DNA of 57,146 nt from NCBI GenBank assembly GCA_017694495.1, contig JADIMU010000026.1:1-57146 (forward strand). Reading direction: 5' to 3'. Origin of the DNA: Candidatus Aphodenecus pullistercoris (lineage in GTDB: Bacteria; Spirochaetota; Spirochaetia; Sphaerochaetales; Sphaerochaetaceae). The notes beneath the pieces are model-generated. The model made no database searches. It was not told the origin of the DNA and was given only the letters and a program-made list of their open reading frames with translations. How positions within the stretch are numbered: position 1 is the stretch's first letter; every line of letters starts with the position of its first letter. This document shows positions 4,792 through 56,455 of this stretch, one piece after another. The position numbers were made by a program, and so were the translations under genes.

Positions 4792-4863
4792 TGGAGGATA
4801 CAAGGATTGAACTTGTGACATCTTGCTTGTAAGGCAAGCGCTCTCCCGCTGAGCTAATCCTCC
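4792..4863 (-). tRNA. tRNA-Val (anticodon TAC)
   Basis: The minus strand folds as a 72-nt cloverleaf: acceptor GGAGGAT/ATCCTCC with discriminator A, D-arm TAGCTCAGCGGGAGAGC, anticodon stem CTTGC/GCAAG around loop CTTACAA, and a TTCAATC T-loop. The TAC anticodon identifies it as valine. The 3' CCA is not encoded and must be added after transcription. Confidence 0.95.
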
Positions 4864-50434: not shown

Positions 50435-51427
50435 ATGAGCGACGAAGAGAAAGTCTACAAACCGGTACGGCGTGCAAGGATTCCATTCACGCCGAAGATC
50501 GTCATCGTCGTCCTCGTCATCCTCTTCCTCGTAGCCGCAGCCGCCTCCAGCTTCTTCGTCGTGGACCAGAGGGAGCAGGCAGTCGTGCTGAGGTTCGGAA
50601 AGTATGACAGGACTGTCGGACCTGGCCTCCATGCCCGCCTGCCCTTCGGCCTCGAGCGCAGCCACACTGTCGCCACGCAGCTGGTGCAGACGCTGACCTT
50701 CGGCTACAGGTCGACCGACACTACAGGAACGGGACTGGCCGGAGCCAGGAGCTACGACGACGAGTCCGTCATGCTGACGGGCGACCTGAACATCGTCGAT
50801 GTCGAATGGATAGTCCAGTACAGGATAAACGATCCCTACAAGTGGCTCTTCAGCGTCGAGGAGAAGGAGAAGACGATCCGCGACATCTCGCAGTCCGTCA
50901 TGAACGCGCTGGTCGGCGACCTGCCCATCCTCTCCGTTATGACCGACCTGAGGACCCAGATCGAGGTCGAGGCGCAGCAGCAGATGCAAGCCATCTTCGA
51001 CGGCTACGACTTCGGCATCGAGGTCGTCACAGTCAAGCTGCAGAACATCGTCCCGCCTGAGGGCGCCGTCCAGGACGCCTTCGAGGATGTCAACAAGGCC
51101 ATCCAGGACATGAACAAGTCGATCAACGAGGGCAAGGAGTACTACAACACTGCCATACCTGAGGCCCAGGGCGAGGCGACGCGCATCGTACTCGAGGCCG
51201 AGGGCTATGCGGCCCAGCGCGTCAACCAGGCCAAGGGAGACGTCGCGGTCTTCGACTCCATGAGGGCAAGCTACGAGGCTTCCCCCGAGGTGACGGCGAC
51301 ACGCCTCCACCTCGAGGCCATGGAGGAGGTCCTCTCCAGCGAGGGAGGATCGATCACCCTCGTCGACCCGGCGCTCGACAACTTCCTGCCTGTCAGGAAT
51401 CTGGGAGGTGCGAAGTCAAGAACCTGA
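50435..51427 (+). CDS. hflK: HflK-like prohibitin/SPFH membrane protein
   Basis: 330 residues. A cytoplasmic N-terminus (1-22), one membrane helix (about 23-45) and the SPFH domain starting VDQREQAVVLRFGKYDRTVGPGLHARLPF (split) match HflK. The helical tail contains EAQGEATRIVLEAEGYAAQRVNQAKGD (split). With HflC it forms a cage around the FtsH protease. AAAGGA lies 8 nt before the ATG. It is separated from hflC by an unusually long 342-nt structured spacer. Confidence 0.92.
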   Translation: MSDEEKVYKPVRRARIPFTPKIVIVVLVILFLVAAAASSFFVVDQREQAVVLRFGKYDRTVGPGLHARLPFGLERSHTVATQLVQTLTFGYRSTDTTGTGLAGARSYDDESVMLTGDLNIVDVEWIVQYRINDPYKWLFSVEEKEKTIRDISQSVMNALVGDLPILSVMTDLRTQIEVEAQQQMQAIFDGYDFGIEVVTVKLQNIVPPEGAVQDAFEDVNKAIQDMNKSINEGKEYYNTAIPEAQGEATRIVLEAEGYAAQRVNQAKGDVAVFDSMRASYEASPEVTATRLHLEAMEEVLSSEGGSITLVDPALDNFLPVRNLGGAKSRT

Positions 51428-51769
51428 CGGGATAAACCCGTAGGCATGAAAGTGCCTTGCTTGACTAGCCTAAGGTCGTAGAGACCTACGTTACCGGCGA
51501 ATGCATAGGCACCGGCGGATGTTGTCCTAGTCCGCCGCTCTGCGGTGCATGGCTAAACAGTCCTGACAGGTAGGGACAGTGCTGTGCACAAGAAAAAACC
51601 GCCGGATAACATTGGCGAAGGGCGACGGGGAGCAAGACCCCGTGACTCCCGCACGAGGAGGCTTAAAAAGCATCATCCGTGCACTGGCAGGGCGGAGGAT
51701 TACCGAAGCCCTTGCCTTTCATCATTCCTCTCACAGCACCAGGCTGTGAGTTTCCTGATGGAGAATTTT
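51428..51769 (+). ncRNA. Unassigned, densely structured RNA region between hflK and hflC
   Basis: This 342-nt spacer has no coding signal. Stems along it on the plus strand are CGGG/CCCG (51428-51440), CGTAGG/CCTACG (51439-51490, an alternative to the first), GGCGGA/TCCGCC (51514-51536) and GTGCA/TGCAC (51545-51589). Further on are ACGGGG/CCCCGT (51625-51643), GCACG/CGTGC enclosing GCTT/AAGC (51651-51682), GGCAGGGC/GCCCTTGCC (51686-51716) and TCACAGC/GCTGTGA (51731-51749). It lacks the landmarks I know for tmRNA, RNase P, SRP RNA, 6S, group II domain V or cobalamin riboswitches. It could be a leader for hflC, an independent RNA, or a small mobile element. Confidence 0.45.
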
Positions 51770-52735
51770 ATGAAGAAGCTTGTGACAGTGCTCGTCGTCC
51801 TTGCCGTGCTGCTCGTCGTCTTCCTGCTGCTCGGCCCCTTCTACATCCTCTCTGAGGGTGAGCAGAGCGTCGTGACCCGCTTTGGACGCATCGTCGACAC
51901 CCAGACGGAGGCGGGACTGAAGTTCAAGATGCCCCTGGTGGACCAGGTGACGAAGTACTCGTCAAGGCTGCAGAGCTGGGATGGAGAGGCCCAGAGGATC
52001 CCGACGGCGGAGAACCAGTTCATCTGGGTCGACGCGACTGCCCGCTGGTACATCAGCGAGCCCGCCCTCTTCTACGAGACGGTCGGCACGATGGAGTCTG
52101 GTCTAGGAAGGCTCAACGACATCATCGACTCGACGATCAGGACGGTCATCTCGCAGTACAGCCTCAACGAGGCCGTGCGCTCGACGAACCAGATCAACGA
52201 GATCAACGTCGTGGAGAGCTTCCAGGATGTGGAGAGCGCCGAGGACGCCGAGACGCTGAAGACGCTGACCAACACGACCGTCAGCCAGCAGAGGATCGAG
52301 GTCGGCCGCGAGGGACTGTCCAACATCATCCTGGAGGAGGCCTCGGAGTATACCGACACCTATGGCATCACGCTGGAGGACGTCATCATCCGCCAGATCC
52401 GCTACTCTGACGACCTGACCGAGAGCGTCTACGAGAGGATGATCAAGGAGCGAAACCAGATCGCCGAGACCTACCGCTCCTACGGACGTGGACAGCTTGC
52501 CGAGTGGAGGGGCCAGACGGAGAGGGACAGGCAGACGATCCTTAGCCAGGCTGAGGCTGAAGCCGCCCGCATCCGTGGCGAGGCCGACGCACAGGCGGCC
52601 TCCATCTACGCCGAGAGCTACTCGGCCAACCCCGACTTCTTCGAGCTCTACAACAGCCTCGAATCGTACAAGGTGACGCTGCCTGCGACGGACAAGGTCC
52701 TCTCGACGGACGGCGAGTATTTCAAGTATCTGTAG
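51770..52735 (+). CDS. hflC: HflC-like prohibitin/SPFH membrane protein
   Basis: 321 residues with an N-terminal membrane anchor (MKKLVTVLVVLAVLLVVFLL), the SPFH domain (SEGEQSVVTRFGRIVDTQTEAGLKFKMP split), and a helical end containing RGQLAEWRGQTERDRQTILSQAEAEAARIRGEADAQ (split). It is the partner of HflK in the FtsH-regulating complex. The ATG at 51770 has TGGAG 6 nt upstream; the frame is open back to 51584 through the structured spacer but is not coding-like there. Confidence 0.92.
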   Translation: MKKLVTVLVVLAVLLVVFLLLGPFYILSEGEQSVVTRFGRIVDTQTEAGLKFKMPLVDQVTKYSSRLQSWDGEAQRIPTAENQFIWVDATARWYISEPALFYETVGTMESGLGRLNDIIDSTIRTVISQYSLNEAVRSTNQINEINVVESFQDVESAEDAETLKTLTNTTVSQQRIEVGREGLSNIILEEASEYTDTYGITLEDVIIRQIRYSDDLTESVYERMIKERNQIAETYRSYGRGQLAEWRGQTERDRQTILSQAEAEAARIRGEADAQAASIYAESYSANPDFFELYNSLESYKVTLPATDKVLSTDGEYFKYL

Positions 52736-56371: not shown

Positions 56372-56455
56372 TGCGGTCGACTGGACTTGAACCAGCATAG
56401 CCTTTCGACCACTAGCACCTCAAGCTAGCGTGTCTACCAATTCCACCACGACCGC
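56372..56455 (-). tRNA. tRNA-Leu (anticodon GAG)
   Basis: An 84-nt class II tRNA on the minus strand: acceptor GCGGTCG/CGACCGC with discriminator A, D-arm GTGGAATTGGTAGACAC, anticodon stem CTAGC/GCTAG around loop TTGAGGT, a long variable arm, and GTTCAAG in the T-loop. CCA is not encoded. Confidence 0.95.

Follow-up and report, generated by a model that had tools for sequence, protein, structure and literature searches.

The window that we analysed, a stretch of 57,146 nt from a Sphaerochaetaceae-like spirochaete, holds hflK and hflC with a gap of 342 nt between the hflK stop (51427) and the hflC start (51770), which raises the question of what separates two genes that normally lie close together. 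A first-pass annotation of the sequence had described the gap as a highly structured spacer without an ORF and had offered three readings, an undescribed cis-regulatory RNA, an independent sRNA or a compact mobile RNA element. The last was upheld and the other two were not, on the basis of an Rfam match and of recognizable element ends. We conclude that the locus very probably carries a 355-bp non-autonomous solo OMEGA/HEARO mobile element, lodged between the coding end of hflK and an ATGA.

An interrupted hflK/hflC junction

Among relatives with a readable junction, hflK and hflC nearly always lie close together, as had been assumed, with an overlap of 1-4 nt or a gap of 1 nt; because of this, a gap of 342 nt is unusual. 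The uninterrupted junction, in which the hflK stop overlaps the hflC start, was found in about 50 related Spirochaetales/Sphaerochaetaceae genomes. The overlap typically runs through ATGA, preceded by a ggaggtgcgaa-like sequence (for example, gggaggtgcgaa followed by ATGAAAAAG in L053, and agaatctgggaggtgcaaa followed by ATGAAAAAGCTC in L034). For two relatives (L054 and L105) the gap value given by the ORF heuristic was wrong, the junction sequences themselves being uninterrupted. The description of a structured, non-coding spacer was confirmed: the gap contains no credible ORF and folds at −141.3 kcal/mol compared with a mean of −113.8 kcal/mol for 100 dinucleotide shuffles (z = −5.3, with 0 of 100 as good).

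The sequence shared with the left side of the relatives' junctions stops at 51414 in the window and ATGA resumes at 51770, with no duplicated bases; 355 bp have therefore been inserted without duplication, and we hold the insertion and its boundaries (Table 1) with high confidence. The feature thus ends where the gap ends, as annotated, and its right end lies exactly 5′ of the ATGA at the hflC start, whereas its left end lies 13 nt upstream of the gap, inside the present hflK frame. The C-terminal end of HflK now reads ..GGAKSRT; the uninterrupted gene ended in ..GGAK, with its stop supplied by the ATGA now at 51770. The element was absent from the hflK/hflC site in all relatives whose junction was read. 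Within the same genome the hflK-ATGA sequence is present solely as the interrupted site, and no element-free match to the target was found.

Table 1. Features of the hflK/hflC locus and tRNA genes of the window
Feature	Position	Strand	Basis or remark
hflK as now read	50435..51427	+	TIGR01933, 307 bits
Last hflK codons (SRT) and stop TGA	TGA 51425-51427	+	Inside the element
Putative guide segment of the omega RNA	51391..51414	+	Directly 5′ of the HEARO scaffold; rule from the IscB literature
Whole element	51415-51769	+	355 bp
HEARO/omega RNA scaffold, complete	51415..51626	+	RF02033; GTCA at 51415 doubles as the element's left end
Right part of the element	51627..51769	+	End-to-end match to full-length solos and to a 139-bp ends-only derivative
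Right-end hairpin	CTCACAGC 51730-51737 / GCTGTGAG 51743-51750	+	Compensatory changes in both right-end stems
Right terminus GGAGAATTTT	51760-51769	+	GGAG 51760-51763, six nt upstream of the hflC ATG
ATGA, putative transposon-adjacent/target motif and hflC start codon	51770..51773	+	Right ends of other copies abut ATGA/ATGG
hflC	51770..52735	+	TIGR01932, 298 bits; residue 8 aligned to model position 5
tRNA gene	4792-4863	−	Rfam
tRNA gene	56372-56455	−	Rfam

A complete HEARO/omega RNA without iscB

The scaffold matches RF02033 (HEARO) over the whole model (1-211 of 211) and scores 136.1 bits (gathering score 83; E = 3.5e-28), which leaves hardly any doubt that the structured RNA belongs to the HEARO/omega RNA family. 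No other Rfam family was significant in the spacer, SorX, mir-15 and speF being sub-threshold chance matches. With this gathering-level match the proposal of an undescribed RNA was abandoned, as was that of a switch made from overlapping stems: these stems are part of the HEARO fold, and no positive evidence for switching was found. The stem reported just before the hflC ribosome-binding site does exist as a hairpin, but its identity is that of the right-end hairpin of a mobile element.

HEARO is the omega RNA that guides IscB, a Cas9-like, RNA-guided nuclease. HEARO ORFs and IscB form one family, and the spacer 5′ of the HEARO RNA has been reprogrammed, with 24-nt spacers favoured by MG35-1 (PMC9755519). 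In the window the putative guide would comprise about 16-24 nt of the left flank, that is, the end of hflK, and would include the former Shine-Dalgarno sequence of hflC (ggagg). No iscB was found within the element; IscB is encoded elsewhere in the genome. Because an HNH/IscB ORF beside a HEARO RNA is common but not universal, its absence marks a solo form and does not exclude membership of the family. In a broad search across the phylum, HEARO was seen in this bacterial family alone, among 393 genomes drawn.

The genome contains six HEARO matches including the window copy, four of them above the gathering score, and its copies have a common right terminus, GAATTT(T) followed by ATGA. A DNA search of the genome with the right end of the window element alone found no second copy of that end. 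One contig (C28) encodes an intact IscB of 451 aa (NF040563, 420.7 bits), whose PDB relatives include OgeuIscB (7xht/7utn), and three partial IscBs are cut by contig ends (C2, C42 and C6). The omega RNAs adjoining the resident IscBs share from about 46% (C28) to 75% (C42) identity with the window RNA, which weighs against its use by these IscBs. Four matches to IS200/IS605-type TnpA (Y1 transposase) lie on contigs other than that of the element, and none adjoined a HEARO copy among the copies examined in this genome. Because the same genome encodes IscB and TnpA elsewhere, the element may be served in trans by the proteins that it lacks.

The intact iscB element at C28 (L019) lies within a yczE-like gene, interrupting it in frame, and the TGA that ends its iscB is supplied by the flanking ATGA target motif.

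A lineage of solo elements

Full-length solo elements of 355-360 bp were found in two genera at several unrelated loci. Two of them, on contigs C27 and C65 of genome G063, match the window element end to end (bases 1-355) at 77% identity, and a 139-bp derivative in G075 (L221, G075:C1:23111-23249), which, judged from its sequence, directly precedes a pspA-like start codon, keeps bases 1-53 and 269-355 at 91-92%. Because these solos and the derivative have the same ends, they independently confirm the termini of the window element; among full-length and ends-only relatives, copies at different loci begin with GTCAAG.. and end with ..GGAGAATTTT. In a tree built from the RNAs of this bacterial family, the window copy groups with L182, L166, L167, L164, L179 and L172, all without iscB, some of these members being cut by contig ends or truncated (L172, L179 and L182 truncated). 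A further solo, L134, branches beside the iscB elements of G008, L168 and L173. The window copy belongs to a lineage of solo elements, 355-360 bp long and lacking iscB. Searches of phage and plasmid DNA with the element gave partial matches only, at 68-70% identity.

The principal alternative is a dead remnant that lost iscB by deletion and whose RNA is neither produced nor used any more. Deletion derivatives are indeed known, namely the truncated solos named above and C36, the second solo of the genome, where a deletion between similar sequences, at a short repeat, fused the two ends of iscB; a recently inserted, stranded remnant would also look like the window copy. On the other hand, the window RNA appears unbroken, is complete and outscores the iscB-linked copies in its own genome, and several unrelated loci in two genera carry solos whose ends match, which requires movement as solos. 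The fold, too, is kept in an alignment of three solos, where 16 of 111 pairs show compensatory changes, both right-end stems included; because this alignment has three sequences only, the changes support preservation of the fold, short of proof. We therefore regard a dead remnant as possible and distinctly less probable than a non-autonomous solo element.

Placement at start codons

In this bacterial family most IscB/HEARO elements adjoin the start codon of the following gene, their right ends abutting ATGA or ATGG depending on the subfamily (for example, L132, L133, L135, L165, L166 and L141). Within this bacterial family, 28 of 34 right junctions lead into an ORF of 100 aa or longer, the interrupted gene at C28 not counted, although ORF length by itself is no proof of a start codon and the element copies are not independent. 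About 14 of the junction ORFs align to a protein family from near the first residue; the profile-aligned genes include recR, ligA, recG, rsfS, xerC/D, PNP and valine-pyruvate transaminase. Eight right ends, that of the window included, carry a Shine-Dalgarno-like sequence at most 15 nt from the ATG. In plasmid and phage IscB elements of other phyla, about 10 of 27 abut an annotated start.

Genes of DNA repair and recombination recur 3′ of the elements (recR, ligA, recG, mutS2-like and xerC/D). On plasmids from two phyla, of the cyanobacterium Trichormus (L189) and of Deinococcus (L190), separate iscB elements follow one pattern: each is flanked by parA and parB and adjoins the start codon of parB. 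In the Nodularia phage vB_NspS-kac68v162 (L210), the gene immediately after an iscB-like gene is annotated as a transposase, and its start codon adjoins the ATTTT end.

Compared with any ATG(A/G) site, at most 4.5% of which are starts, the placement is far beyond chance. Against a null of noncoding sites (at most 43% starts; 93% coding sequence), the count of 28 of 34 gives a p-value of about 3e-6, with non-independent copies, whereas a profile-supported count of 18 gives 0.16 and the stricter count of 14 would be weaker still. Because the p-values under this null are weak at the stricter counts and the copies are not independent, most of the pattern may be explained by the target motif together with the purging of gene-breaking insertions. 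We propose only tentatively that the family is specialised to enter directly 5′ of the start codons of host genes, with the motif ATG(A/G) serving as start codon, the guide often including the gene's own Shine-Dalgarno sequence and, in several subfamilies, the right end replacing it, and that an omega-RNA-only lineage spreads in this manner through IscB and TnpA acting in trans. A literature search on start-codon placement and on stand-alone or non-autonomous copies, with Weinberg 2009 and Altae-Tran 2021 outside its scope, returned nothing relevant.

Proposed mechanism

The element inserted, without target duplication, just before the ATGA that served as both hflK stop and hflC start. A transcript running out of hflK would then yield an omega RNA with the hflK end as guide and ATGA as target motif, and the putative target of an IscB in trans would be AATCTGGGAGGTGCGAA-ATGA. 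Where the element is lost, or missing from a sister chromosome, IscB with the omega RNA would cut the uninterrupted hflK-ATGA junction, and repair would restore the element and favour its retention. Because the target exists in the genome only as the interrupted site, the occupied chromosome would be spared. For TnpB, likewise, the guide keeps a record of where the element inserted, and copies without the element are cut by the nuclease (PMC11870625). By this analogy we lean slightly towards guiding of a trans-encoded IscB by the window RNA; expression and cutting are here entirely what we infer. TnpA in trans would move the element, and for transposition by the resident TnpA we see an about even chance. 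We propose that hflC is still translated, because the right end of the element brings a new ribosome-binding site.

That same replacement, by which the element forms the hflC leader and supplies its GGAG, would also suit a domesticated regulator, a structured leader that tunes hflC translation or guides for a host purpose. Guide-programmed repressors derived from TnpB exist and offer a general precedent. However, the same RNA type precedes many unrelated genes, and because the relatives read lack the element at hflK/hflC nothing points to its being conserved for a host function, which makes domestication improbable. A previously undescribed RNA particular to hflKC, whether a riboswitch or a housekeeping RNA, to which the strong folding might have pointed, is refuted by the gathering-level match to the full HEARO model, the mobile-element ends and the element-free hflKC of relatives, and we give it practically no weight.

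With the solo mobile element as the preferred reading, a supposed new riboswitch is replaced by a known guide RNA of the Cas9 ancestor in mobile form. Should the solo lineage be active, it would show guide RNAs spreading in nature without their nuclease, and placement at a start codon would explain how a large insertion is tolerated at an operon junction.

Comparison with known systems

The RNA family is familiar and its location unusual; the solo HEARO is new as a member and represents a modestly novel lineage. With HEARO (RF02033), the IscB omega RNA, the window copy shares a full-length match in sequence and structure and a 3′ flank that opens with ATGA, but no HNH/IscB reading frame follows its RNA. 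Weinberg et al. 2009 reportedly placed HEARO insertions 5′ of ATGA or GTGA. Stand-alone omega RNAs, for instance in Ktedonobacter racemifer, are said to have been described by Altae-Tran et al. 2021; as in the window, they have no adjacent iscB while IscB is encoded elsewhere in the genome. The solos reported here form a lineage with a defined right end, a uniform length and uninterrupted sites in relatives. Non-autonomous (MITE-like) derivatives of IS200/IS605 are likewise short, with conserved ends, a subterminal hairpin, no target duplication and a transposase present only elsewhere; here, in contrast, a complete guide RNA makes up the main content of the element, except in the 139-bp ends-only copy.
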